Below, piece by piece: positions 1-16,108 of a DNA stretch of 64,000 bases. The position numbers were made by a program, and so were the translations under genes. Under the pieces are notes generated by a model that saw nothing but the letters and a program-made list of their open reading frames with translations, did not search any database and was not told the DNA's origin. The stretch spans positions 1 through 64,000 of the forward strand of contig JACVCD010000005.1 of assembly GCA_016742275.1 (NCBI GenBank), in the 5' to 3' direction. Numbering within the stretch: position 1 is the stretch's first letter; every line of letters begins with the position of its first letter. This DNA is from Gemmatimonadaceae bacterium. GTDB lineage: Bacteria > Gemmatimonadota > Gemmatimonadetes > Gemmatimonadales > Gemmatimonadaceae.

Positions 1-63
1 CCCACTCTCTACCGCTTGCAGGATCTCGACGATCTGACTCTCGGTAAACTTCGATCGGCGCAT
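1..63 (-). CDS. IS3-family transposase OrfA, N-terminal fragment cut by the window edge
   Basis: The minus strand reads MRRSKFTESQIVEILQAVES from an ATG at 61-63, the typical opening of IS3-family OrfA helix-turn-helix proteins. The start is supported by a strong AGGAGG ribosome-binding site at about 68-73. Only 21 residues are in the window, so intactness cannot be judged. OrfA binds the element ends and works with an OrfB integrase that should lie to the left. It sits next to a truncated IS110 gene, which suggests a nested insertion. The right end of the IS probably falls between 74 and about 150, but no terminal repeat could be fixed. Confidence 0.75.
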   Translation of the reverse strand, partial: MRRSKFTESQIVEILQAVESG

Positions 64-154
64 GGTACCTCCTGAAATGCACCGTCAAAGTCTAGCTCAC
101 ACTGTCTGCTCTTGGGGGAAGCTTACGAGGTCTTCGGGACGGGTAAGAAGCTAA

Positions 155-658
<504 letters not shown>

Positions 659-714
659 CTTTCAAGACAGTTGCTAACGCTTATTAGACCGCGTGCGATC
701 ACTGCAGCCCGCTT

Positions 715-748
715 TTGTCTATACCGCTGATTTTCGCAGTATAGACAA
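715..748. repeat. 34-bp palindrome downstream of gajB
   Basis: TTGTCTATAC (715-724) is repeated in inverted order at 739-748. Three further pairs, one a G-T wobble on the minus strand, extend the stem to 13 bp around an 8-nt loop. It lies 42 bp past the gajB stop. No T-tract follows on either strand, so it may be a factor-assisted terminator or the edge of an inserted segment. Confidence 0.5.
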
Positions 749-790
749 TCCGGTAAGGACGGATCCGCTGCACAGCGCAAAGCACAGGAC

Positions 791-2770
791 CTACTCGGGG
801 ATTGTCATAACCTCGCCAGATTTGAACCACTTGCTCTTCTGTGCGTACGCTAGCGCCTGTGCTGCATCCTTCGCCCAAAGCACCAGCGCCAAAGTCTCCT
901 TGGCACGACTGCTGGTCACATATAGGAGCCGGAGCGTCCGGTCAATTGACGTCTCCTTGCCCTCCTTCACGTTCTTGACGTCGGAATCGCCGAGAGGGGC
1001 ACCGAAGAGGCGGTCGTAAGCAAATAGACTGCCAGCGGCATCTTCGTCGTCCATCACGACCATCACATGGTCAAACTCCAATCCCTTGACCACCTGATGC
1101 GTCGCGAGATGAGACTTTCCACTTAAGTAGGTCTTGAACCGACGAAGCTGAATCCAAGGTGACTCAAAGAGCCCATGCCAGCCACGAGCCAATCTATCCT
1201 CGAGGGCCTCCGGCTGCTTCGGCTTTGGCGCAGGTGGTGGTGGGTTCTTATCGTTGAATGCCGTCACCAGCCGCTTGTCAGGCTCGAACAAACCAGCCTT
1301 GAGCACTGGTGCAAGCACCTCCCGCACGGTCGCTGCAGGCTTGACGCACGCTATGGCGAAGTCCTCAACTGCCCGTTGATACGCATTGAGCAACTGTATG
1401 CGAGCTTCACTGTCTTCGGGTAGCTGATCGAGCCGGTCGTAACGATGCAGCACTTCCGTAACGGCAAAGTCTGATGGGGCACCGCCATCCTTGAAGCAGT
1501 CGGCAAGCTCCATCGCTTCCCACAACAGCATCTGAACTGCCGCTGGTCCGGAGACTTCGCCATTTGCATCTGGACGAACCGAGTCGGGGTCAAGGAGCGA
1601 CAACGCCTCGAAGACCTCTAAGAAATCGCCACGGCGGGCCACCAAAGAATGCTCCAGTGCGAGCACTTTGTGTCCAGGATTGCCTGGCTCCCAATCTGCC
1701 AAGCCGGTCGTGGCCCGCATCGCAGACTCGCAGTGCGCCTCTCTGCGAAGCTTCTCCGCTGCCGATGCGGATGCATTGCCGATAAATATCCGGACCATGC
1801 CGGCTGACTTCTCTTCGCGTGGATGCTGGTGAACAACCTTTGAGGATTGGGTGCGCCCTTCCAACTCGGAGTCCCATACTTCATTGATAAAGTCAACGAT
1901 GCGTCGTTGGCTTCTGTGGTTCATCTCCAGCTTTGGCGTTGCCCAAGCTTCTGGAACCATGTTCGGAAGGTCCGCATGCCCATCCAAGTAGATACGCTGG
2001 CGATGGTCGCCGAACAGCCCCAGCATCAGCCTTGGCGGGTCTTCGGCCACGACCTCCAATAGCGCATCCAAGACGCCTTTCATCGTGTCCTGAGACTCGT
2101 CGATGAGGATGACGGGATGCTGGTCGCGAAGGATACGACGAAGTGTAGGCTTGTGCGTGAGCAGCCAGGTGGCCAAAGCTAAGACTTGCGAATGGTTCAG
2201 CGCGCCGTCCCCGTGACGCTTCCGATCCGGACTGTAGGTGAACTGCGTTGTCGCGGCGAGAGCTGTGGCCTTGGCCTCAAGCTCCCCGATCTTCTCCCTG
2301 TCTTTGTCGGTCGGAACTCCGTTCCTCCGACCTGCCGCAGCATCACGCGCCTTCTGAAGCGCATCTGCATTCATGGCCAGAAGTGCTTCACGAATGTCGT
2401 TGTCAAAGCCTGCAATCAGGTCCCAGCAGAACGAGTGGATGGTGGCGATATGCGTGAGGTCGCTCGTGCCAAGGCGGCCGGTCACCACGAGCGCGGCGTT
2501 CTTCGTGTACGTGATGATGCGAATCGTCTGAGCACGAGCCCTCAGCTCTCGCGCGAACCTGACAGCCGGGGCACCTTCCGCTTGCGTGGGCTCTCCCTGC
2601 ATACCCCCCGTGAGTTTACGCAGCGCGGCCACTAAGGTGCGCGTCTTGCCGGACCCGGCACCGGCAAAGAGGAAGAAGCTCCGCGGTGGCGCGCTGCTGA
2701 TGTAGCCCACGATTTCGTCGACAACACCAGCGTCACGTTCCTTGGGATCATCTTTCACGGCAACCATCAC
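791..2770 (-). CDS. gajB: UvrD/PcrA-like superfamily 1 helicase, Gabija GajB-like
   Basis: The 659-residue protein has SF1 helicase motifs. Walker A GAGSGKT is at residues 37-43, Walker B/motif II DESQD at 224-228, a GLEF motif at about 563-566 and the arginine-containing LLYVTSSRAKE block near 615. A proline-rich linker lies at 510-520. Residues 130-190 are rich in charged and alanine residues. The gene follows an OLD-family nuclease gene and overlaps it at a GTGATG junction, so the start is GTG 2770 or ATG 2767 and translation is coupled. That order and coupling define Gabija systems, in which GajB works with GajA against phage. It is longer than the roughly 500-residue Bacillus GajB. A class 2 OLD-UvrD pair of other function remains possible. 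Confidence 0.85.
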   Translation of the reverse strand: MMVAVKDDPKERDAGVVDEIVGYISSAPPRSFFLFAGAGSGKTRTLVAALRKLTGGMQGEPTQAEGAPAVRFARELRARAQTIRIITYTKNAALVVTGRLGTSDLTHIATIHSFCWDLIAGFDNDIREALLAMNADALQKARDAAAGRRNGVPTDKDREKIGELEAKATALAATTQFTYSPDRKRHGDGALNHSQVLALATWLLTHKPTLRRILRDQHPVILIDESQDTMKGVLDALLEVVAEDPPRLMLGLFGDHRQRIYLDGHADLPNMVPEAWATPKLEMNHRSQRRIVDFINEVWDSELEGRTQSSKVVHQHPREEKSAGMVRIFIGNASASAAEKLRREAHCESAMRATTGLADWEPGNPGHKVLALEHSLVARRGDFLEVFEALSLLDPDSVRPDANGEVSGPAAVQMLLWEAMELADCFKDGGAPSDFAVTEVLHRYDRLDQLPEDSEARIQLLNAYQRAVEDFAIACVKPAATVREVLAPVLKAGLFEPDKRLVTAFNDKNPPPPAPKPKQPEALEDRLARGWHGLFESPWIQLRRFKTYLSGKSHLATHQVVKGLEFDHVMVVMDDEDAAGSLFAYDRLFGAPLGDSDVKNVKEGKETSIDRTLRLLYVTSSRAKETLALVLWAKDAAQALAYAQKSKWFKSGEVMTIPE

Positions 2771-5064
2771 TCCGACCCCTGCTTCGAAAGGGCCAGCTCT
2801 GTGTCGAGCCAGGCCAGCGCATCGGCGATATATGCCGGGCAGGCCACCTTGTCGCCCAGGCTAATACGCTCGAACATAGTCGCAGCGAACTCAGCCTTGG
2901 CAAAGTTTTCCCGCAGCATTGCATGAAGGTCTTTGCCAAGTGCCACGAGGTCCGGTTGCGCAATAACCGTCTTGACAGCCGCGTGCAGGGGGCCTACCGG
3001 TTTCGGCGGCGGACTCTCGTCTTCAGCTGGCTTCTGGTTCTTCTGTTCCCCTAGGTCCTTGAACCAGTCGATGTTGGCTAGGATCAACGAGTCTTCAAAA
3101 GAGCTCGGCCATGGGCCGCCCTTTTGCACTGGGATCTGCCACGCAAATCGGACCCGCCCACCGTTCCCATTGCTCCAAACCTGGTCTGCGTCCTTCGGCT
3201 CAGCCAAGAGATGCAGCTGCTTCTGCTTGGGATGCCAGCCATTGAGCGTGTCGTTTCCGCACTCGAGCAATGCGGGATCGACGATTGCTGCAGCTTTTCG
3301 AACAGCCCTGCCTTTGGCGTCTTTTGTCACCTCTACAGGGTCCACATCAGTGATTACCACTGTCGGGATGCAGAGCCTCTCAACAAGCGGGCGTAGCCGA
3401 TGTGCGTGGCGCCCGCCCAAGTCGAGAAAAGAGATGTATCGCTTGTCGAGCTCGTGGAAGTCGCGCTCAATGAACAATGGGACGAGCATCCTTTCCGCAG
3501 CGCCTTCGACGAAGATCGCGGCGTCAGCGAACAAGAGGTCCGTGTGCTGCACTCGAAAATAACGTTCAGCGAAGGTTCGGGTTTCCCTATCGGTTCCGAA
3601 GGCGGTGGCCAGGTCGATAACGTCTGAACTCGGCATCCCGCTCGCAGCTGTTGCAATCCGCCGGACGTAGCGAAGTCGGTCGAAGTTCTCGGCGTGAGCC
3701 AAGTGACTCGCGTGGGTGCTGATGACCAACTGACTACTTAGATGGGCATGCTCTGGCGCCACAGGCCCGATGAGCTCTGCTGCGCGTCGAGGGAAGATGC
3801 GCTGCACCTGGACATGCAGGTGCGCCTCGGGCTCCTCCACCAGCACGACATGCACCGCCGCAGGGCTGCCTTGGTCCGGTTTCAATCTGGAGTCTCGGAA
3901 CGAGACCAGCTGATAACTCAACGACTGCAGGTTCTGGTAGCCGAGCCCGATTGAATACTCCGGAAGATAGACATCCGCCTGCTGGCCTTCGATTCGATAT
4001 TGTACAGCCGTACTATGGTCAAGCAGATCACCAGTCTGGATACGAGTTCTGAAGTAAATCTCTTGGGGATCGTGAAGCGTCGGATACCCGAGCTTCTTCA
4101 CATCCTCAATGGAGGGTGTTAGCGCAACCTTAATGCGAGCGTCGAGTTCTAGTTGGGCAGTGGCGATGGCGGAGACTAGCTCCGGTTGATGGCCCTGACC
4201 TGTCGTCGCGACATTGAGGTGCTGCCGCGCGTACTTTAGCAACTGATTGGAAAAGAGGCCGACACGGTGCGCGCTCGCTGTGGGTCGGGTTTCGGCTTCT
4301 TCCGTTCCTAGGCCACGCTGCGCAGGAACGAAATCGACGCGCAAAAGCTTGGAGAGCTTGGTGCGATCCACAGGCGCGGCCTGTGGAGTCAAGCTCTGAG
4401 GTGCACCCAACGGGTTCGCAAGCGGTCCAATGGCCGGATCGAGCTTGTAAACCAAGACGCCTCCAAGATCGGCCGGATAGCGAAGCCAGTAGTCGATGAG
4501 GTCGACCGGCCACGCGTAAGCCTCCTTCTTGAGGTCTTTCACGGGCTGCCGAGCCTCTCGGTACCGCCAAGCCAACTTCTGTAGCAACTCCACCGAGGAA
4601 GCGGGCTCAAGCCGCAGGCGAACGCCTACGGCTCCCCCACTCCAGTTCAATGATGTGATGAAGGGCGCGACCAGGTTGTAGGCCCCCTGCTGCGCATCGA
4701 ACCAGAGGTCCAGCGTAGGCATGCAGGCCAGAAGCGCAGCCAGTTGCCCCTCCCACCTGGCAACGTCGCCAGTGGCCGAAACGGGGTCCTCCGTCAGCTT
4801 CTCCCACTCCTCGCCGAGTGCCTTTAACGCGGGCCACTGGTCGAAACTAATGTCGAAGGCGCCGAAGACCTGTCCTGTCGTCGCTAGGAAGTTGCGTACC
4901 GCTATGAGGATCGACGTCTTGCCACTGTTGTTGGCACCAACCAGAACTGTCGTCTTCTTGTCGATCTGAACCCTAGTTTGGGCCAGACGCCGGAAACGAC
5001 TGAGCTCAATGCATGACAGGCTGACATGGGGAGCCTGTGGGAGATTGGGCAGTTGCGCGCTCAT
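2767..5064 (-). CDS. gajA: OLD-family ATPase-TOPRIM nuclease, Gabija GajA-like
   Basis: The 765-residue protein combines an ABC-type ATPase and a TOPRIM nuclease. Walker A GANNSGKT is at residues 43-50 and Walker B LVEEPEAHLH at 408-417. The TOPRIM glutamate is E520 in FVEG, and the metal-binding DVD is D573/D575, with SSFEDS at about 654-659. In Gabija, GajA is a nucleotide-sensing DNA-nicking endonuclease that assembles with GajB. Canonical GajA is about 580 residues; here the region between the ATPase halves (about 60-380) and the C-terminus are enlarged, with a PPPKP stretch near 685. The gene is first in a two-gene unit with gajB. No strong ribosome-binding site precedes ATG 5064. Confidence 0.87.
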   Translation of the reverse strand: MSAQLPNLPQAPHVSLSCIELSRFRRLAQTRVQIDKKTTVLVGANNSGKTSILIAVRNFLATTGQVFGAFDISFDQWPALKALGEEWEKLTEDPVSATGDVARWEGQLAALLACMPTLDLWFDAQQGAYNLVAPFITSLNWSGGAVGVRLRLEPASSVELLQKLAWRYREARQPVKDLKKEAYAWPVDLIDYWLRYPADLGGVLVYKLDPAIGPLANPLGAPQSLTPQAAPVDRTKLSKLLRVDFVPAQRGLGTEEAETRPTASAHRVGLFSNQLLKYARQHLNVATTGQGHQPELVSAIATAQLELDARIKVALTPSIEDVKKLGYPTLHDPQEIYFRTRIQTGDLLDHSTAVQYRIEGQQADVYLPEYSIGLGYQNLQSLSYQLVSFRDSRLKPDQGSPAAVHVVLVEEPEAHLHVQVQRIFPRRAAELIGPVAPEHAHLSSQLVISTHASHLAHAENFDRLRYVRRIATAASGMPSSDVIDLATAFGTDRETRTFAERYFRVQHTDLLFADAAIFVEGAAERMLVPLFIERDFHELDKRYISFLDLGGRHAHRLRPLVERLCIPTVVITDVDPVEVTKDAKGRAVRKAAAIVDPALLECGNDTLNGWHPKQKQLHLLAEPKDADQVWSNGNGGRVRFAWQIPVQKGGPWPSSFEDSLILANIDWFKDLGEQKNQKPAEDESPPPKPVGPLHAAVKTVIAQPDLVALGKDLHAMLRENFAKAEFAATMFERISLGDKVACPAYIADALAWLDTELALSKQGSE

Positions 5065-5577
5065 CAGATTTCTTCGAGTGATAAAGCCAATTGCGTCGAA
5101 ACCCCGAGTCCGGACTCCAACACTGCCGGCGCCATAGTGTTTTGCGAACGGAGGGAGGCTCGCTAGGGCAGACTGGCCTCCGGGTGAGCGAAAAGCGAGG
5201 GTCAGCGCGTAGCCAGCGTCCCAGGCCTACGCGGACCTACCCAACTTCACGCGATATCATCGACCTAGCAAATCAAGGCGCATTCCTATGAGCACGTTGC
5301 TTCCAACATCCGAATGCTACGAGAAGCAGTATCCACCGAGCCAAATTTTCATCATAAGTGTTCTTTGTCGGCGCTTAGGCACGCTGGTGACAGCGATGAA
5401 GCTTGGCCGGCGCCCTTTTGTCAAGTTCAGATTCCGCGGTAAACACACTGACCCCTACGATTGCGTTGCACAAAAGAAATGCAACTGGCTCGAAGGGCGG
5501 CCAGAGTCTTGATCGATCGCAACCATTTTCTTCGTGCACAGAGATCTCGATTCGCAACAGCAATGTGTGCCTGAGTA
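5065..5577. other. Spacer between gajA and the Trypco1 gene, no convincing gene
   Basis: About 510 bases separate the gajA start from the end of the Trypco1 gene. Open frames here, such as 5288-5512 on the plus strand, have no ribosome-binding site, no recognisable domain and no codon bias. The segment is visibly less GC-rich than the chromosome to the right. It should hold the gajA promoter and the 3' end of the peptidase operon, but no clear -35/-10 pair or terminator was identified. Confidence 0.6.
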
Positions 5578-5901
5578 CTACACACGCCGCTTAAGTCTCA
5601 CCTCAATGGAGGCCTCAACGCCAGCCGTGGCGACACCAACACTTCCCTCACCAGTAACCGCAATCCCAATCGTTATCTCATCAACACCATACTCAGCGAC
5701 TTCGGCCTTCACACGTCCGGCGATGGCCTGCACCGCGCCGATAACAACCTCCAATTGGGCGGCAAACTGGTCCGCAGGAATTTCGAGTGCGGTTTTCGCT
5801 ATTGCCTTCGCGATAACGCCATGCGTTACGCCACCGAGACGATCCTCCGATTCGACGGGTGGGAGTGCGTCAGCAACGATTAATCGGACGATATCAGACA
5901 C
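5578..5901 (-). CDS. Trypco1-domain (CU044_2847-type) protein, partner of trypsin-like peptidase
   Basis: This 107-residue protein matches the small trypsin-co-occurring domain 1 family. The hallmark C-terminal half is ITIGIAVTGEGSVGVATAG followed by a beta strand ASIEVRLKRR, preceded by a helix around residues 45-70. Such domains are described by comparative genomics next to trypsin-like peptidases in predicted NTP-dependent conflict systems, where they are thought to act as adaptors or substrates; no catalytic residues are expected. The gene starts at GTG 5901 with a GGAGAG ribosome-binding site, 20 bp after the peptidase stop, so the two form one operon. Family recognition rests on the motif; the role is inferred. 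Confidence 0.75.
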   Translation of the reverse strand: MSDIVRLIVADALPPVESEDRLGGVTHGVIAKAIAKTALEIPADQFAAQLEVVIGAVQAIAGRVKAEVAEYGVDEITIGIAVTGEGSVGVATAGVEASIEVRLKRRV

Positions 5902-5921
5902 TGTGCTCTCTCCGCCTGAAG

Positions 5922-7052
5922 TTAGTCATAAAGTTCGATATCAAAATAGTTCACCACTTGACGCATGGACTGCGCTAGCCCTTCAGGATTCGGACCTCCT
6001 GTGCTGCCCATGTAGAGACCGACGCAGTCGGAACCAGGCCCACTGATTGACACCAGTGACCCACTGTCACCGGCATGACCTGGTGTGTCAAGAAACACTC
6101 GATGCGCTACCAGATTCCCATAGTAACTCGGATGATCGTTCACTCGTAGTACACTAGCTGCAAATCCACCCGAGACCGCGCGAACAGTCACATTTTGCCC
6201 AGGCGCGACAGCAGAAGCAAGCGGCAGGGACGTTACGGAGGAAGGGAGCTGGCCGCAGTCGAGAATCGCCGCATCTATTACTGTAGTTCCGTCAACATCG
6301 GCGACAGGCAATGCACCGCTTGGCAGCATTGGTACTGTTACGCCAGGCCCATAGCCAACGCCAGCTAGTGAATGACGCGCAATAACGATTCCTCCTGCCC
6401 AAGGTGGGCCCAAAAACCTTTTGCTTGAGCGTGGTCTGGCATAGCAAGCCGACGCCGCACCTAGAGGAACCGGCGGAGCGGCAAATTCAATCTCGCGATA
6501 TTCGGCGAGGACTGGGAACCCTTCAATAATTCGTAGTGGCGATAGCTGCTCATCGCTTGCTGCTTGTTCCTGCGGTTCCCTCTGCTGCTGCAAGCCAATC
6601 ACAATACCGAAGCTATAGCCGATGCCTTCTTGTTCAATGAACGGCGCATCGAATCGAATCCGAGCACGCTGGCTGCTTCCTCGCCTATCGGTCGCGTTCA
6701 ACGAAAACGGAATGAATCCAGCCGAGAAATCTATTATCGCTGGAGGAGACTGCGAACGTCGGACGGAAGGCAATCCAAACATCGCGGTTACTATTGAGGT
6801 ATCATCGAGTTGAGCAAGTAGGTGCATTGCCCAAGAATACGATCGAGCCTCATCGGACTTAAACCCAGCCTGTCCTACCAAGCGCTGTACCCAAGGATCC
6901 ATTCCCGATGGGAAGTCTTCTGGGACTAGTGACCAAGCATCTGCAGGTAGCATTGCCAATTGAGCTATAGGGGAAACTTCTATTGTTCGTCTAGCGCCGT
7001 TATCCCTGGCACATCGTAATAGTATCGCACGCGAACAGACCGAGCAAATCAC
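5922..7052 (-). CDS. Trypsin-like serine peptidase of a Trypco1 conflict system
   Basis: The 376-residue protein carries a chymotrypsin-fold peptidase in its C-terminal half. H227 (IARHSLAG), D260 (VIDAAIL) and S330 in GDSGS fit a His-Asp-Ser triad in the right order and spacing. Residues 1 to about 190 match no family I recognise; they have a helical stretch around 70-95 and probably sense or bind a partner. There is no signal peptide, so the enzyme should be cytoplasmic, unlike ordinary trypsin homologues. GTG 7052 is the earliest start after an in-frame stop; a later start at M34 is possible. It is the first gene of the operon with the Trypco1 protein and presumably cleaves a target when infection is sensed. 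Confidence 0.75.
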   Translation of the reverse strand: MICSVCSRAILLRCARDNGARRTIEVSPIAQLAMLPADAWSLVPEDFPSGMDPWVQRLVGQAGFKSDEARSYSWAMHLLAQLDDTSIVTAMFGLPSVRRSQSPPAIIDFSAGFIPFSLNATDRRGSSQRARIRFDAPFIEQEGIGYSFGIVIGLQQQREPQEQAASDEQLSPLRIIEGFPVLAEYREIEFAAPPVPLGAASACYARPRSSKRFLGPPWAGGIVIARHSLAGVGYGPGVTVPMLPSGALPVADVDGTTVIDAAILDCGQLPSSVTSLPLASAVAPGQNVTVRAVSGGFAASVLRVNDHPSYYGNLVAHRVFLDTPGHAGDSGSLVSISGPGSDCVGLYMGSTGGPNPEGLAQSMRQVVNYFDIELYD

Positions 7053-7799
7053 GCTTCTATGATCGCTCGACTGCGCGCTACGTCAAAGCACCAGCAGACC
7101 TGCCACCAACGTGATTGATTTACCCAGCCCGCACCGATCCGGACCCACGAACCCAAGAGGTATCCAACAGCGTTTTCGTTCGTGGTGGCAGACATCTTGG
7201 ATCTTATCGTACATCTTGGATGCGCTCTGCAAGTATGACTTCAGCATTCTCGAAATCAGGCCCATCCCATCTATTGTGTAGACAGAAAACCGCCATGAGG
7301 CTCTCGCGGTATGCGATGGAGCACAGTGGGGATCTTGCACTACTTCATAGGCACTGACTCGAGCGACGGCGCCTCTCGCAATATGCGAGCAACAAGGGAG
7401 CATCGACAGAGGCGCGTGTGATGCGAACCAAAGGTAGAGCGTGAAGCAGGTGCAATGTTGCATCTGACAGTAAATCTCTCGCTGCCCATAGCTCCCGCGC
7501 TCAACCAATTAGAGAGATGCTTCGCGTATTTATACCGCCTTGGCCATAGACTTGACACTCTGATAGGGAGCCGCAGTGGCTCACACGAAAAATGGCGCTC
7601 CAGGATCTTACGATTACCAACCCAATTCGGACCTGAAACGAAACGCCCGTAATTCGGAGTACCGATGGCCTCGTTGCATGCCGCTTTGCCAACTGGCGCT
7701 GAATCACGCACGACGTCCCCCCACCTCCTTCTCCTCGAATACTGACTGGACGATCCCCTCTCCGTTAGTCGCTAAAGAGGACGAAGAAGTATCGGGCGG
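7053..7799. other. Spacer in the island, no convincing gene, possibly decayed
   Basis: About 750 bases lie between the peptidase start and the end of the alpha/beta hydrolase gene. Several frames of 60-140 codons are open on both strands (for example 7083-7508 minus and 7340-7711 minus). They are rich in Cys and Arg, lack ribosome-binding sites and match no family. The 7083-7508 frame ends with a GLGKS string that only loosely resembles a P-loop. The region should include the promoter of the peptidase operon and may contain a decayed gene. Confidence 0.5.
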
Positions 7800-8876
7800 T
7801 CACAGTGCACCACCCGGCACCGGCGCCACGCCCTGCGAAGCAAGAGGCACCACAGGTATGCTTTCATTCGATGGTGCCACTCCCCGCGCGACCAGAATGC
7901 GGCGATCGATCCCGCGCAGAAGCTCGCGGATCAGTGCCATGCACGCCGGTGAGTCGAGCGCAGCGGAATGGTGACTGCCGTAGTCCACACCCGGCTCGAA
8001 CTTGCTAGTAAGGTCGATGTCCCAAACATTGTCGGGAAGCTTTTGACTTGAGTCTAAGCCGCTACGCCCTAGCCGACGTTTGCCGAAGTGCTTTAAACCA
8101 GCGCTCGTGCCCAACACCGAGTCCAAGCCCGTATAAAGCGCAGTGATGCGGTATGCGAGATTCGCCATCCCTTCGCCAGGCGTGTTGCCGATCATCTCTC
8201 CACTGGAGAAGAGGTCGTTGTCGACGTCCGCTGCTACCAGCAACATTTGATTGATCAAACTAACCAGCAGCGGACGGTTTTTTCTGTTCCACACGTCATA
8301 CATCGCCTGCTCAACCACGTAAGCGCCCATACTATGTGCGATTATGCTCGTTTTGGCGCGGCAGGCCTTTGCACCGGTGACGCCCTGCTTGCTCACCAGC
8401 CAGTCATACAGCGCCGAGAGCACGTTAGTGAGATCGTCAGCACTTCGGCGCGCGTCCTGTCGGTCGGGCAGGTAGCCTCCCACGCTCCCGTCGCTGGGCC
8501 AAGTGAACAGAATGCACTCTCCGAGGCCAGCTTGGTTCGGGTTATCGATAAAAAGTTGATCGGTGATCGACTTGTAACGCGATGCAGCGCCGTCCCAGTC
8601 GTTGTTGTAACCGTGGACAAAGACTGTGACATGCCGTTGATCTTCCTGATGCGCGTCATCCAAGAGTGGAAATGCTGCCGCTGCTGCCACTAGTTCTGCC
8701 TTAAACGCGTCAGGCGCCAACTCTTTCCAAGACGAGAGTTTGCGAATCTCCACGGCAGTCGTACTGAGGGGACAGACGTAGTATCGCACGACGCCCTCTT
8801 CATCTTTACCTAATTTCCTGTTCTTGCCCGAACCGGTCGGCTTGCGATTGCTAATCATCCAGTATCGACTTGCCAT
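7800..8876 (-). CDS. DUF900-type alpha/beta hydrolase (COG4782-like esterase)
   Basis: The 358-residue protein has an alpha/beta-hydrolase core. The oxyanion strand VFVHGYNN is at residues 86-92, a TWPSDGS block at 125-131, the nucleophile elbow AHSMG with S182, the acid in VAADVDND near 214-221, and a late YGSHHS as candidate histidine. These are hallmarks of the DUF900/COG4782 group of uncharacterised esterases. ATG 8876 has a GGAGG site seven bases upstream; an upstream extension to 9002 is open but lies inside the previous gene. The stop of the upstream membrane protein gene is 12 bp away and overlaps this ribosome-binding site, so the two are coupled. The substrate is unknown; a lipid or acyl ester at the membrane would fit the partner. 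Confidence 0.8.
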   Translation of the reverse strand: MASRYWMISNRKPTGSGKNRKLGKDEEGVVRYYVCPLSTTAVEIRKLSSWKELAPDAFKAELVAAAAAFPLLDDAHQEDQRHVTVFVHGYNNDWDGAASRYKSITDQLFIDNPNQAGLGECILFTWPSDGSVGGYLPDRQDARRSADDLTNVLSALYDWLVSKQGVTGAKACRAKTSIIAHSMGAYVVEQAMYDVWNRKNRPLLVSLINQMLLVAADVDNDLFSSGEMIGNTPGEGMANLAYRITALYTGLDSVLGTSAGLKHFGKRRLGRSGLDSSQKLPDNVWDIDLTSKFEPGVDYGSHHSAALDSPACMALIRELLRGIDRRILVARGVAPSNESIPVVPLASQGVAPVPGGAL

Positions 8877-8887
8877 TGATTCCTCCC

Positions 8888-9661
8888 TTACTGTTTGGAG
8901 TGAACTTCTTCGCACAGGTGATTGCTCACTAAGACACATTTCTCGTCTTTCCACGTCCTCCATTTGAGAGAGTAGAGGCCGTGGTGCAACGTCGAGCCAC
9001 ATGGCGCAGCGTAGCGATGACTCGCTCGCGAATCCGACATTGGAGATTGCGAGTTCTCTTTCTCGGATATTGCGGGGTCTTGCATAACACCGGGATTGCC
9101 TTCCCGTTCCATCAATTGCAGCTCATCGCTGTGTCGTTGAACCAAGAACGCTTGACTTTCAAAATCCTGCGCGACATCGAAAATTCTCCGCGCAGTGTGC
9201 GGGTATTTGTCGTGAGTGTAATAGTCAAACGAAGCCGTCACTCGCATGAGCCGCGTCGCGGAGGGGAGCATGACGACATGACGAATCACCTGATGCACTC
9301 CGGGACGCACGAAGTAATAGCCTATCTCCGCAGGGACAATTGACTCACGTTCTACGACAGGTAGCCACAAGGACGCATCCTTTTCGGTGCGGGCAAGCGT
9401 AATACTTGGCGAGTCTACATGCACAGACACACGAAGGTCATGCAGTCGGTGTTCAACAAAGCCCTTGTTCTCGAAGACGAGCCATACTTCGGCCAGAATT
9501 GCCCCCGCGCCATTCGGCCAGGGAAAGAAGCGGCACTCCAGATCGAACTGCACGCGTTGCTTGCGCTGGTTCTGCTCAAAAAACCAAAACCCAGCGCCAA
9601 GGATACCCGCCGCAGATACAATGCCTGAGACAGCGTTAATCCAGTCGACCACGCTAGACAT
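8888..9661 (-). CDS. Uncharacterised single-pass membrane protein coupled to the DUF900-type hydrolase
   Basis: I do not recognise a family for this 257-residue protein. One hydrophobic segment lies near the N-terminus (WINAVSGIVSAAGILGAGFW, about residues 7-26), followed by NQRKQR, which places the rest in the cytoplasm by the positive-inside rule. The remainder looks beta-rich up to about residue 170 and becomes polar, charged and probably flexible afterwards. Start ATG 9661 is chosen to put the membrane segment at the N-terminus; ATG 9688 is an alternative. The gene is coupled to the downstream hydrolase, so it may be that enzyme's membrane anchor or regulator. Confidence 0.65.
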   Translation of the reverse strand: MSSVVDWINAVSGIVSAAGILGAGFWFFEQNQRKQRVQFDLECRFFPWPNGAGAILAEVWLVFENKGFVEHRLHDLRVSVHVDSPSITLARTEKDASLWLPVVERESIVPAEIGYYFVRPGVHQVIRHVVMLPSATRLMRVTASFDYYTHDKYPHTARRIFDVAQDFESQAFLVQRHSDELQLMEREGNPGVMQDPAISEKENSQSPMSDSRASHRYAAPCGSTLHHGLYSLKWRTWKDEKCVLVSNHLCEEVHSKQ

Positions 9662-9899
9662 AACTGGGGATTCCCGACAAAGGTCCATTCAGCCCCGACG
9701 CGGAACCACAGACAACAATCACTCACTGTGGCGCACCTAGCGGCGTGTAAATCAACACAGCAGGATGCGATCTCAGTTTCCAGCGCGAATGTACAGGCGA
9801 AACGGCGCCCACCGCTAGTGTGTATTTCTGGGCTGCTAGTACATGCAGGCGAATAGCACCACCGAAGAGCCTACTGGCTCGCTAGTCGACACGCGGACA

Positions 9900-11297
9900 C
9901 TACAGCTGCCCCGTCCCACCCCACCGCCCCAGTATCTCGCGATACTCCGCATCCTCATACCGGGACAAGAGAAACGCCCTCTCATACTCCGGCCTCCCCC
10001 TACCAACAATTTGCCCAGCAAGTAGTTCCGCAGCCGCCGGCGCCGCCATCAGCCCAAACCCGCTGAACGCCGCGCACACGTACGCACCATCGGCACCTGC
10101 GGGTCCGATTAGCGGCCGATTCTCCACGGTCTTGGTGTAGTAGCCGCCGTCCACATAGCAATGCGGCAGACGCTCAACGTACGGCGCGAGGCCAGGCGCC
10201 AATGCACACATGCCGCGCAGCACGACCTCCGAGTAGTACGGATCCTCGGGCAGCGGAAACTCCGGCACGTCGTATCGATGATCGCCGTGATAATCCCACA
10301 GCATCAGCACCGTTTTGCTCGCGCCGTAGCCCTCGGGGCGCAAATGAATGCCGGCCGGCAATGACTTGGTGAGCCACGCGGTATCGGAATCCGCGGCAAG
10401 CTCGACGCGCTCGTCATCGCTCCACGCCAAGGGCACCGGGTCATCGAGAATCACCAGCCCCGTGCCACGGTCCACCACGCCGTGCACATCCTCCACGGCA
10501 ATCTTGTAGTGGGCTTCGCTGAACAGCGGCAAATCCATACCGCACATCGCACCTACTTGGCGGGCATGCGGCCCGGCGGCATTCACGAACACCGGGCACG
10601 CGATCTCAACGCCCGCGCCGCCAGCCAACGCCACACGCACACCACTCACTCGGCCGCCAACCTGCGGCACAGCCTCGACACGCCCTTCCACCAGTACACC
10701 ACCAGCCGCGCGGAACTCTTCCAGCAACTGCATGCCCAACTGCTGCCCACTCAACCACCCGCAGCGCCGTGCATGCAACACGGCACACACATCGCTCGAC
10801 AGCCACGGGAAGTGCGCGCGAATGGCCTCACGATCAAAAAACAGGTCCGCACCATCGGGATGATCCTTCCAGCCCATCGAGGCCGATCGCACATACGACG
10901 ACGCCTCAGCCACCGACGCATACCGTCGCACAGGCCCCGCCCCCTGAGCCGAAGCCAACGCAGCACTCGCTTCAAACTCGGCCGCCTTCTCGGCGCGCGC
11001 AGTGGCATACACATACCCGCGTCGGTTGAGCAGAAAACGATTGCCACTGTGCTCCGCCCACTGCTCGAGAATGTCGATACTGCGATTCATGAACCGCACC
11101 ATCGCATCATCCGGACCGGGCCACCAATTGCGATAAGCTTCGGTGCTCTTGTCACTCGTGAGCGCCATCGGTGCGTGCTCGCTGACAATCACCACGCGCA
11201 AAGCCTGCCCCACCGCCAACGCATGCGCCGCTGCCAATCCCGCAATACCCGCTCCACACACCACCACATCAGCGGTCATCGCACCCGCACCACTCAT
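9900..11297 (-). CDS. FAD-dependent oxidoreductase of the DAO (sarcosine/D-amino acid oxidase) family
   Basis: The 465-residue protein opens with a dinucleotide-binding strand VVVCGAGIAGLAAAHAL (GxGxxG at residues 15-20). It ends with the FAD-contacting block around ENRPLIGPAG and the YVCAAFSGFGLMAAPAAAELL helix, as in DAO-family amine oxidases. It probably oxidises an amine or amino acid, passing electrons from FAD to oxygen or a quinone; the substrate is not predictable. Start ATG 11297 overlaps the stop of the upstream gene as ATGA, so translation is coupled. It is the last gene of a HAD - HhH - oxidoreductase operon and the first clearly chromosomal gene right of the island. Confidence 0.8.
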   Translation of the reverse strand: MSGAGAMTADVVVCGAGIAGLAAAHALAVGQALRVVIVSEHAPMALTSDKSTEAYRNWWPGPDDAMVRFMNRSIDILEQWAEHSGNRFLLNRRGYVYATARAEKAAEFEASAALASAQGAGPVRRYASVAEASSYVRSASMGWKDHPDGADLFFDREAIRAHFPWLSSDVCAVLHARRCGWLSGQQLGMQLLEEFRAAGGVLVEGRVEAVPQVGGRVSGVRVALAGGAGVEIACPVFVNAAGPHARQVGAMCGMDLPLFSEAHYKIAVEDVHGVVDRGTGLVILDDPVPLAWSDDERVELAADSDTAWLTKSLPAGIHLRPEGYGASKTVLMLWDYHGDHRYDVPEFPLPEDPYYSEVVLRGMCALAPGLAPYVERLPHCYVDGGYYTKTVENRPLIGPAGADGAYVCAAFSGFGLMAAPAAAELLAGQIVGRGRPEYERAFLLSRYEDAEYREILGRWGGTGQL

Positions 11298-11911
11298 ACA
11301 CGGGCCCCGGCGTGAATACCGTGAGCCCACAATGCGCGCTCACAGTGTGTGGCCGTCCACGATTCGCCAAGCACTTCACGCAGCACCTGCGCCCGCGCCA
11401 CCAATGCCGCGGCATACTTGCGATAGTACACGGCCGTCCACGCGATCTTGCCCAGTTCGTCCACGTGCGGCGCCATCTGCTGGGTCACGATCTCGTCGAA
11501 GAACGGAAAGCGATGTGGGTCGATCACCGCCAACACCGCTGATGCGGTAGCCGGCCCTACACCACCCAGCGCACTCACTGCTGCCACTGCCTTTGCCGGC
11601 ACATCCAGCAAGCCACTGGCTTTGGCTGTGGCGTCTTCCACCGCACCCGGCGGATTGTTGCGTACCAGCACGAGATTGGGCGCGCGCCACACACCACGCG
11701 CCATCTTCCATTCGGTGATGCGCACCATCTCATCATGCGTGACATGATGCGGCGCACGCGCTGCGATCAACGCCGGCAGCTCAAACCGATACCACTGATC
11801 GTGCCCCGCCAATCGTTCGCTGGGCAGTTGGGCAATCGCATCGTCGTACGAGGCCAGCGCGTCCTGCCAGGGCGCAGCGTCGGTGTGCGGCCAGAGTGTG
11901 AAGGTGGGCAT
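11294..11911 (-). CDS. Uncharacterised helix-hairpin-helix protein
   Basis: This 205-residue protein has a helix-hairpin-helix-like core SALGGVGPATASAVLAVID (about residues 113-131) followed by PHRFPFFDE, plus an upstream ITEWKMARGVWRAPN block. The HhH element resembles those of DNA glycosylases, but the lysine-containing catalytic hairpin and iron-sulphur cysteines of the HhH-GPD enzymes are not seen. From memory, proteins with the same WK..RG.WRP and GVGPATAS blocks occur as uncharacterised fungal proteins. ATG 11911 is preferred over an upstream start because the extra residues would be Cys/Met/Arg-rich. It lies 25 bp after the HAD gene and overlaps the oxidoreductase gene. Confidence 0.65.
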   Translation of the reverse strand: MPTFTLWPHTDAAPWQDALASYDDAIAQLPSERLAGHDQWYRFELPALIAARAPHHVTHDEMVRITEWKMARGVWRAPNLVLVRNNPPGAVEDATAKASGLLDVPAKAVAAVSALGGVGPATASAVLAVIDPHRFPFFDEIVTQQMAPHVDELGKIAWTAVYYRKYAAALVARAQVLREVLGESWTATHCERALWAHGIHAGARV

Positions 11912-11936
11912 GGGCGAAATATGCAGGCGGGTTCGA

Positions 11937-12854
11937 CTAGCCGAGCAGATCCCGCAACACATACCTCGGCACATGCTCCGCATGCCCCCGCCGTACCGCA
12001 TCGGCCACCTGCTGCTCGAGCGTCACACCCGTGAGCAGCAACGCCGACGCAATGCCCACGCCATTCGCGCCCTCGATATCGGTGTGCAGCGTATCGCCCA
12101 GCATCACGGCATCGCGTGTGTTGACCCCGGCCAGCGCCGTTTCGAAATGCCGAGCGGCCGGTTTGCCCAACAGCTCGAAACGCGGCGCGTCTTCATGCAA
12201 GAGCAACCCCAGCGCGCGCTCGATGAGTAGCGCCAATGCACCCGCCGTCAGCCCAAAGGTGCCCGGACCTGCGGGATACACGAGATCGGGATTGGCCAGC
12301 AACAAACGCGGCGGACGACCAGCCCGGCACGCCGCCAACACCATGTTGAGCAGCGAGTCGAGATCGTTCAGCGTATCGAACCCACCTTCATCGGCAATCA
12401 CCACGGCGTCCGCAGGGTTCCGCACACTGGGCTCCACCACCTCGGCGCCAACCGCCCGCGCATAGTCGGCCGAATCGGGCGTGCCGAGCACCGTGACACG
12501 GGCATTGCCCAACCCATGCTCCACCAGCGCCGGTCCAATGAGCATGCCCGAACTCATGACATGCTCGGGACGGATCATGATGCCCAGTCGCGCAAAACGC
12601 GCGCACACCCGCTCGGGTGAACGCGACGCGTCGTTGGTCACAATCAAGAACGGCTGTCCACGCGCATTCATGTGCGCCACCGCCTGCGCGGCGCCAGGCA
12701 ACGCGCCACTGGCGTTCACCAGCACGCCGTACGCATCGAACAGCACCGCCTCGTAGCGATCGACCAGTTCGCGAAACCCGATAGCCTCGGGCAATACCAC
12801 CCCACGGTCCGTCGGCAGATCAGCAGGGGAATCAGATGGCAGCAACGCAGTCAT
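11937..12854 (-). CDS. HAD-superfamily class IIA hydrolase
   Basis: The 305-residue protein has the class IIA HAD layout: motif I FDAYGVLV at residues 39-46, motif II IVTND near 75, a substrate-capping domain in the middle, motif III in the GKPAARHF region and motif IV MLGDTLHTDIEGANGVG. The nucleophile is D40, but the usual general acid at D+2 is Y42, as in the DxWG/DxYG subgroup of IIA hydrolases. It probably removes phosphate from a small metabolite such as a sugar phosphate or pyridoxal phosphate. It is the first gene of the minus-strand operon and is divergent from the tricorn gene, 44 bp away. Confidence 0.8.
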   Translation of the reverse strand: MTALLPSDSPADLPTDRGVVLPEAIGFRELVDRYEAVLFDAYGVLVNASGALPGAAQAVAHMNARGQPFLIVTNDASRSPERVCARFARLGIMIRPEHVMSSGMLIGPALVEHGLGNARVTVLGTPDSADYARAVGAEVVEPSVRNPADAVVIADEGGFDTLNDLDSLLNMVLAACRAGRPPRLLLANPDLVYPAGPGTFGLTAGALALLIERALGLLLHEDAPRFELLGKPAARHFETALAGVNTRDAVMLGDTLHTDIEGANGVGIASALLLTGVTLEQQVADAVRRGHAEHVPRYVLRDLLG

Positions 12855-12898
12855 CCCTGAGAGCTAGACGACCCGCCGAGCGCGCACAAGTTTGGTGC

Positions 12899-15800
12899 AT
12901 GCGCCCATTCCTTTCTCTCCGTATTGCCGGTGCCGCATGGTGTGCGGCCGTCCTGATTCCCACCGCCGCCATTGCGCAGTCTCCTCCGCCGCCTCGCGCG
13001 GCATTGGCCGAACCCGCCCTCTCCCCCGATGGCCGCGAAATCGCCTTCGTGAGTGGTGGCGACATCTGGACGGTACCGGCCGACGGCGGGGAGGCACGAT
13101 TGATGGTGGCGCATCCAGCCGGTGAGTCGCGCCCGCTCTATTCGCCGGACGGCACGCGCCTGGCCTTCTCCAGTACCCGCACCGGCAATGGCGACATCTA
13201 CGTGCTCACACTGGCCACCGGACAGGTGCAGCGTCTCACGTACGATGACGTGGCCGAGGTGCCCGGTGGGTGGTCGCGCGACGGTCAGTGGCTGTACTTC
13301 AACAGCGCGTCGCAGGACATCAGCGGTATGCAGGATGTGTATCGTGTGCGAGCGAGCGGTGGCACGCCCATGGCATTGGCCGCTGATCGATACGCCAGCG
13401 AGTTCTTTGGCGCTCCCTCACCCGATGGTCGCACACTCGCCATCTCGGCCCGCGGCACGGCCAGTGGTCAGTGGTGGCGCAAGGGACGTTCGCACATCGA
13501 TGAAGCCGAGGTCTGGCTGGTGCGCGATGGTGGCGCAGCGGCGCCCACGTACTCACGTCTCACCGAAGACGGTGGCAGCAAGAATCTCTGGCCCATGTGG
13601 TCACCCGATGGCAACACGGTGTACTACATGAGCGACAAGAGTGGTCAGGAGAATCTTTGGTCGCGCGCGGCCGCAGGTGGCAATGGCACGCAGCTCACGA
13701 ACTTCTCCAATGGCCGTGTGCTCTGGCCGAGCATTTCGAACAGTGGCAATGCCATCGTGTTCGAGCGTGACTTTGCCGTATGGCGCTACGACGTGGCATC
13801 CAAGCGCGCAGCGCAGGTGGCCATCACGTTGCGTGGCGCCAGCAGCACACGCGGCACGGAACGGCAGACACTGAACACCGGTTTTCAGTTTGCGTTGTCA
13901 GGTGACGCCAAGAAGCTGGCCATCATCGGCCGCGGTGAATTGTGGGCCGCCGATGCGCGCGAAGGTGGCGACGCCACACGCCTGAGCAGCACCCGTGAAC
14001 TCGAAACACAGCCACGCTGGCTGCGTGGTGATCAGGCCGTGGTGTACGTGGCATGGCGTGCCGATGGTGGACGGCTCATGCGCCGCGAAGTGGTGGCCGG
14101 CACCACCCGCGAACTCACTACCACTGGTGATGCGAGCACACCGATTCCGAGTCCTGACGGACGATTGATCGTGTACACGAAGGACGGCACCGAACTCCGT
14201 GTCGTGAACGCCGACGGCAGCAATGATCGTCTGCTGGCGCGTGGCATCTTTGGCCGCGCACCATTTGCCGGCAGCGGCGGTATTGCGTGGAGCCCCGACA
14301 ATCAGTGGGTGGCCTTCCTCACCCGCGGTGCACATGGCTTCAACAATGTGCACGTCGTGCCGGCTGCGGGCGGTGAAGCACGTCCGGTGAGTTTCCTGGC
14401 CACTTCTTTCAGTGGCGACTTGCTGTGGCACCCCGATGGGCGCGCGCTGTACTTCCTGACCAGTCAACGCACGGAAGCTTCGCGTTTGATTCGTGTGGAT
14501 CTCGTGCCACGCACACCGGCATTCCGCGAAGATCGATTCCGCGATTTGTTTGGACCACGGCCAACGCCTGCTCCAGTTGCGCCACGTGACACTGCCGCCC
14601 GCCCCGACACCACCACTCGGCGGGCTGCTACCACACCCGTGCGCATTGTCTTCGACGGCATCGCCCAGCGCGCCAGTGTGCTCGACCCGGGCATTGACTT
14701 GGGAAGCATTGCCATCACGCCCGATGGCCGCACCATGCTCATCTCGAGCAGTGGCGGTGGACAGCCCAATCTCTACACCTGGTCACTCGACGAGCTTTCA
14801 CGCGATCCGGCCACACCGCGTCAGCTCACTACCACCGCAGGTTTCAAGAGTGTGGTGGGCTTCTCCGCCGATTCGCGCGAACTCTGGTTCACCGATGCGG
14901 GCCGCCTGCAGATCCTGCCATTGGCCGGTGGTGCCGCGCGCGCCGTGGCCGTGAGTGCCGAAATCGAGACCGACTTCCACAGCGACAAGTGGGCCGCATT
15001 TGATCAGGCGTGGACCACACAGCGTGACCAGTTCTACGATCCCAAGATGCACGGCGCCAATTGGGAAGAAGTGCGCACGCGCTTTACGCCGGTCGTGGCC
15101 GCCGCGCAGTCACCCGACGAATTCCGTCGCATCCTGCAGCTCATGGTTGGTGAGCTCAACGCGTCGCACTCGGGCGCCAGCGGCCCCACCGGATTTGCCG
15201 CCACACCAGTCGGCAAGATGGGTGTGCGCTTTGATCGTGCGGCCTACGAAGCCAATGGCCGCTACGTCATCAAGGAGCGTATCGCGCTTGGCCCCGCGTC
15301 GATCAGCGGTCTTCAGGACGGCGATGTCATTCGCAGCGTGAATAGCACACCACTCACCAACACCATCAATCTCGATTCACTGATGGGTGGCACGATCGGT
15401 CGTCGGGTTGAACTCTCCATTCAGCGCAACAATCGCGACACCACCATCGCCCTGCGTCCCATCAGCACCAACGCCGAAAAGGGTCTGCTGTATCGGCAGT
15501 GGGTGGAGGAACGTCGCGCGTACGTGGCGCGTGTCTCCAATGGACGTCTGGGCTATGTGCACATGCCCGACATGAGCGCCGAAGCGCTGAGTCAGTTGTA
15601 TGTCGATCTCGATGCGCAGAACTTCGCGCGCGATGGTGTGGTGATCGACATGCGCAACAACAACGGTGGCTTCGTGAATGCCTACGCGCTCGATGTGTTT
15701 TCGCGTCGCGGCTACATGACCATGACCACCCGCGGCTCCGTCTCCGTACCGGCGCGCACGCAACTCGGTCAGCGTTCACTCGAAAAGCCCACCGTGCTGG

Positions 15801-16108
15801 TGGTCAATCAGCACACGCTCTCCGACGGCGAAGACTTCACCGAAGGCTACCGCACCCTGGGGCTCGGCCCCGTGGTCGGTGAACCCACCGCCGGGTGGAT
15901 CATCTATACCAGCAACGTGAACCTGGTGGACGGCACTTCGCTGCGGGTGCCCTTCATTCGGGTGGACGGCGCCGACGGCAAGAACATGGAGCTGGTGCCC
16001 CGCCCGGTGGACGTGAAGGCCGTGCGTCCGGTGGGTGAGTCTTACAGTGGGCGAGACAGCCAACTCGACGCGGCGGTCCAGGCCCTGCTGGCTAAATTGT
16101 CACGGTAG
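12899..16108 (+). CDS. Secreted tricorn-like S41 serine peptidase with WD40-like propellers
   Basis: The 1,069-residue protein begins with a signal peptide (MRPFLSLRIAGAAWCAAV... to AIAQ). TolB/PD40-type propeller repeats follow (ALSPDGREIAFVS, YSPDGTRLAFSS and similar) to about residue 670. A tricorn C1 region with a PDZ-like segment (KERIALGPASISGLQDGDVI) comes next, then an S41 catalytic domain whose nucleophile is S975 in TLSDGEDF. Tricorn-family enzymes degrade peptides channelled through their propellers; this version would act in the periplasm or outside. ATG 12899 gives a proper signal peptide. A repeat-poor stretch near 560-600 is Pro/Ala/Thr-rich and looks like a linker. Confidence 0.9.
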   Translation: MRPFLSLRIAGAAWCAAVLIPTAAIAQSPPPPRAALAEPALSPDGREIAFVSGGDIWTVPADGGEARLMVAHPAGESRPLYSPDGTRLAFSSTRTGNGDIYVLTLATGQVQRLTYDDVAEVPGGWSRDGQWLYFNSASQDISGMQDVYRVRASGGTPMALAADRYASEFFGAPSPDGRTLAISARGTASGQWWRKGRSHIDEAEVWLVRDGGAAAPTYSRLTEDGGSKNLWPMWSPDGNTVYYMSDKSGQENLWSRAAAGGNGTQLTNFSNGRVLWPSISNSGNAIVFERDFAVWRYDVASKRAAQVAITLRGASSTRGTERQTLNTGFQFALSGDAKKLAIIGRGELWAADAREGGDATRLSSTRELETQPRWLRGDQAVVYVAWRADGGRLMRREVVAGTTRELTTTGDASTPIPSPDGRLIVYTKDGTELRVVNADGSNDRLLARGIFGRAPFAGSGGIAWSPDNQWVAFLTRGAHGFNNVHVVPAAGGEARPVSFLATSFSGDLLWHPDGRALYFLTSQRTEASRLIRVDLVPRTPAFREDRFRDLFGPRPTPAPVAPRDTAARPDTTTRRAATTPVRIVFDGIAQRASVLDPGIDLGSIAITPDGRTMLISSSGGGQPNLYTWSLDELSRDPATPRQLTTTAGFKSVVGFSADSRELWFTDAGRLQILPLAGGAARAVAVSAEIETDFHSDKWAAFDQAWTTQRDQFYDPKMHGANWEEVRTRFTPVVAAAQSPDEFRRILQLMVGELNASHSGASGPTGFAATPVGKMGVRFDRAAYEANGRYVIKERIALGPASISGLQDGDVIRSVNSTPLTNTINLDSLMGGTIGRRVELSIQRNNRDTTIALRPISTNAEKGLLYRQWVEERRAYVARVSNGRLGYVHMPDMSAEALSQLYVDLDAQNFARDGVVIDMRNNNGGFVNAYALDVFSRRGYMTMTTRGSVSVPARTQLGQRSLEKPTVLVVNQHTLSDGEDFTEGYRTLGLGPVVGEPTAGWIIYTSNVNLVDGTSLRVPFIRVDGADGKNMELVPRPVDVKAVRPVGESYSGRDSQLDAAVQALLAKLSR

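Follow-up and report, generated by a model that had tools for sequence, protein, structure and literature searches.

The stretch of DNA analysed here, referred to as the window, comprises 64,000 nucleotides from a Gemmatimonadaceae bacterium, and the contig starts at its base 1. At this contig end, which is also the island edge, lies the C-terminal piece of an IS110-family transposase (155..658, plus strand; Transposase_20, E 3.2e-14). It is followed on the minus strand by a Gabija system that PADLOC recognises as complete, with gajB (791..2770; UvrD helicase, 659 aa, GajB 671 bits) overlapping by 4 bp the adjoining gajA (2767..5064; AAA+TOPRIM, 765 aa, GajA 767 bits). Two genes are found 513 bp upstream of gajA, on the same strand and with nothing evident between: one for a 107-aa small protein resembling the Pfam families Pepco (PF24393) and Trypco1 (PF19493) (5578..5901), and one for a 376-aa protein with the motifs of a divergent trypsin-fold (PA clan) serine peptidase (5922..7052, with an uncertain GTG start). 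A gap of 747 bp separates the latter from two more minus-strand genes, one for a DUF900 alpha/beta hydrolase carrying an AHSMG elbow (7800..8876, Pfam E 1.8e-26; the start at 8876 was set from its ribosome site AGGGAGGA) and, directly upstream, one for a 266-aa protein with no family assigned and one moderately hydrophobic N-terminal stretch (8888..9688). The island adjoins an oxidase gene at 9900-11330. No tRNA or Rfam RNA was found at the site.

The original prediction described the peptidase and its partner under the single range 5578-7052; the ORFs and coordinates are right, but that range covers two genes, 7052-5922 and 5901-5578. The two are separated by 20 bp on the minus strand, and this short gap, together with the good ribosome site GGAGAGAG ahead of the Pepco-type gene, makes the predicted operon with the 107-residue partner likely. 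At this base composition, the computed chance of 376 codons without a stop is about 1e-7. The GTG of the peptidase gene lacks a good ribosome site, so translation could begin downstream, at TTG32 or M34, while a longer start is excluded by an in-frame stop 11 codons 5' of the GTG. Neither a signal peptide nor a TM segment is visible in a hydropathy scan, in which the best 19-residue window reaches 1.16 overall and 1.01 inside residues 1-60. The absence of a signal peptide that had been predicted is thus upheld, the upstream stop barring any longer start. The GC3 of the peptidase gene is 0.45, compared to about 0.7 in adjoining housekeeping genes, which suggests that it was recently gained.

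The full triad of the original prediction is confirmed, with H227 in ARHSLAG, D260 in IDAAIL and S330 in GDSGSLV. The full ordered motif string appeared in 14 of 1,000,000 shuffles of the peptidase sequence. The predicted catalytic part is C-terminal (approximately residues 187-376), and a profile search found no family for residues 1-185. No convincing match to the peptidase was found among Pfam, NCBIfam or PDB sequences, and no relative was found among genome contigs, 100 related genomes, plasmids, viral contigs, phages or 395 genomes of the phylum. The matches at E 0.005-1 are all short; two of them, a stretch of a vWA protein in genome G034 and a Shewanella plasmid ORF, were inspected and dropped. 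Since no relative occurs in these collections, the conservation that would normally prove a system is not seen for this pair.

A search of the phylum with the peptidase motif pattern collected a set of GDSGSL[IV] proteases that matches Nal1_C (PF25819), with hits including the solved structures of rice NARROW LEAF 1 (PDB 7y77/8pmg). These Nal1-like proteases share with the peptidase the motifs R/N-H-[VS]-L-A, IDAAI and GDSGSL[IV] and the spacing to VGL. In an hhalign comparison, peptidase residues 326-374 score 31.8 against them, the best of 200 shuffles reaching 24.9, although the match is weak and covers 46 C-lobe columns only. In contrast, the peptidase gave no match to Nal1_C at E up to 10, and the own-genome search with that profile found none either. 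With a HMMER profile of Nal1-like domains it ranks second of about 300 at 5.1 bits, a score not separated from shuffles. AlphaFold models have pLDDT values of 31.6 from the single sequence and 31.3 from a thin alignment with the N-lobe misaligned. From the ordered motifs and the C-lobe match we call the protein a divergent trypsin-fold peptidase, presumably catalytic, and not a Nal1 member. The earlier description as trypsin-like agrees with the ordered motifs, but no profile recognises the protein. Nal1-like proteases with long C-terminal extensions are themselves present in many genomes of the phylum (L055-L062, L066, L070, L075).

The partner matches Pepco over residues 30-105 with 38.9 bits (E 1.3e-9), well above the Pfam cut-off of 27, whereas its match to Trypco1 is marginal, at 24.9 bits against a cut-off of 24.6; the NCBIfam model CU044_2847 gives 21.5 bits, under its cut-off of 23. 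A home-made Trypco1 profile, built from nine loci, scores the partner at 17.0 bits, compared to 12.5 for the best of 600 shuffles, and two other Pepco proteins at an unremarkable 7.9 and 4.9 bits. By these scores the partner is a Pepco protein first, with some Trypco1 likeness; its earlier assignment to Trypco1 comes close, with Pepco the better match. We infer that the two families are related. Pepco exceeds its cut-off in 4 of 395 genomes of the phylum, including the present one. Pattern scans for Pepco in genome and viral contigs gave no match, nor did tblastn against plasmids. Two further candidates were excluded from the Pepco-peptidase pairs, a 147-aa Pepco-like protein adjoining a tyrosine recombinase (L010) and a match within a MnmE-like ORF (L011). 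No function for Trypco1 or Pepco was found in the literature searched.

Kaur et al. (2020; PMC7159879) described Trypco1 and Trypco2 paired with trypsin in VMAP ternary systems. As at the present locus, a small partner is encoded next to a trypsin-like peptidase, but in those systems Trypco1 is the first gene and the trypsin is part of a fusion with VMAP or STAND-type proteins with NTPases. The same order was seen in our survey of nine Trypco1 loci (eight on plasmids and one in a phylum genome), where Trypco1 is encoded upstream of a large protein. At eight of the nine loci this protein starts with a canonical trypsin domain, with the motifs VTCAHV, D[VI]A[VL]L or a variant, and G[FY]SG[AS]P, and it either extends into a long C-terminal region or has a MoxR or AAA ATPase gene downstream; at the remaining locus (Nostoc, L095) the neighbour is annotated as AAA-like. 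In a genome of the phylum, Trypco1 is followed by a 1084-aa protein with Trypsin_2 and AAA domains (L028 4471-7725 and 7822-8187, minus strand). In the present pair, the peptidase gene comes first and stands alone, and its catalytic part is C-terminal with GDSGSLV, behind an unrelated N-terminal region. A different pairing is observed in genome G332 (L008 6392-9292, minus strand), in which a Pepco gene precedes a caspase gene with a 1-bp overlap, and the overlapping genes continue with that of a 512-aa protein without an assigned family. The same small-protein family is there paired with a peptidase too, but Pepco comes first and the peptidase is a caspase, while here a serine peptidase gene leads. 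Pepco-type partners are therefore not tied to one peptidase class. Taken with the serine proteases beside Trypco1 in eight of nine loci, the G332 pair indicates that peptidases of this kind regularly have such a small partner next to them.

The defence setting that had been predicted is supported by the complete adjoining Gabija and the other defence genes at this site in the sister species G001. There, on the same side of the oxidase gene (L029 2995-15631), are IetS, a DrmD-like helicase and a type III RM pair. In four other genomes (G028, G020, G029 and G005) the ORFs read at the same site include no evident defence genes. The site is thus variable, and has been occupied by defence genes at least twice. 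Gabija is otherwise rare in the phylum, with a GajA-like match (34% identity, E 1e-30 or better) in one further genome of 249. More similar Gabija systems, approximately 58% identical, are carried by Pseudomonas, Polaromonas and Burkholderia plasmids, where gajA-gajB occurs without the pair.

Several other readings of the pair were considered. One would make it a canonical Trypco1-trypsin, NTP-dependent conflict system, either a VMAP/MoxR-vWA ternary or a trypsin-STAND type. The partner does pass the Trypco1 cut-off, just, and the surveyed Trypco1 genes do adjoin serine proteases. However, gene order is reversed here, the catalytic part lies at the C-terminus and carries GDSGSLV, where the canonical systems have an N-terminal one with VTCAHV/GFSG[AS]P, VMAP-C was not found in a genome search run without a positive control, and no NTPase, MoxR, vWA, VMAP or STAND gene is in the cassette or adjoins the pair in window 1-16000, Gabija aside, with the contig ending at base 1. 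This reading is very improbable, and the NTP dependence in the original prediction is not supported. The pair could instead be an accessory of Gabija, the protease processing or tuning GajA/GajB, as its position and strand would allow. Several other defence systems have acquired trypsin-like proteases, as in the nuclease-protease pairs of Hachiman, Avs, Lamassu and DRT described by Tuck et al. (2025; PMC12799240). The present protease shares with those a defence setting, but is a separate protein without an MBL nuclease, whereas theirs is fused to a defence protein and has an MBL-fold nuclease partner; Gabija is not mentioned in that paper. The plasmid Gabija systems without the pair speak against a fixed accessory, the other Pepco genes of the phylum do not adjoin Gabija, and we consider such a role distinctly improbable.

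Two further readings look to the island itself. Two small adjoining genes with the toxin-like enzyme first, on a mobile island with low GC3 and an IS piece, could form a toxin-antitoxin-like pair. The protease would then poison the cell from within the cytoplasm and Pepco would simply inhibit it, and the pair would help the island to persist more than it would protect against phage. Pepco and Trypco1 are, however, linked to conflict systems and are not known antitoxins, and this appears unlikely. Quite unlikely, too, is that the locus is decaying, with the peptidase an inactive, shortened leftover of a larger system since lost. The weak start, the 747 bp upstream without a gene, the nearby IS piece, the unusual composition and the lack of relatives would fit decay, but the peptidase frame and triad are intact, as is the Pepco gene with its good ribosome site.

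We tentatively propose that the two genes form a self-standing protease and regulator module in a defence island, with Gabija a neighbour outside it. It is quite possible that this is so, supported as it is by the order of the triad, the hhalign score of 31.8, the tight spacing, the Pepco match above cut-off, the adjoining Gabija and the variable site; the trigger, binding, inhibition and cell arrest are drawn by analogy only. A cytoplasmic, divergent trypsin-fold protease would be co-expressed with the Pepco-type protein, which most likely binds it and either blocks its activity or steers its action. A trigger, perhaps sensed by the N-terminal 185 residues of the protease or by Pepco, would release the protease to cut a protein of the host or the phage, or a neighbouring effector, and this cleavage would stop the infected cell or harm the phage. 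Elsewhere in bacterial immunity, trypsin-like proteases are known to activate effectors (PMC12799240; PMC13236601).

It is noted that the cassette contains no evident sensor or effector gene. A stronger version of the proposed module, which we hold to be rather unlikely, would have it operate without an NTPase switch, with the sensor in the N-terminal region of the protease and with Pepco and Trypco1 as general regulators of unrelated peptidases, whether trypsin-fold or caspase; two small proteins would then do both the sensing and the killing. In many predicted bacterial immune systems Trypco1 or Pepco is found together with a peptidase. A cassette pared down to a single protease and its partner, lacking the large NTPase proteins, would offer nearly the simplest means of probing the role of the partner. 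There is also a hint that Pepco and Trypco1 form one group serving both trypsin-fold and caspase peptidases.

The DUF900 hydrolase and the 266-aa protein, for which no close relatives were found on plasmids, may or may not be further members of the module, and the 747-bp gap argues for transcription of the hydrolase gene apart from the pair. Within this otherwise gene-free gap, an ORF at 7083-7508 (minus strand), without a Pfam match, ends in GFVGPDRCGLGKSITLVAG, a Walker A-like loop, and may be a remnant or chance.
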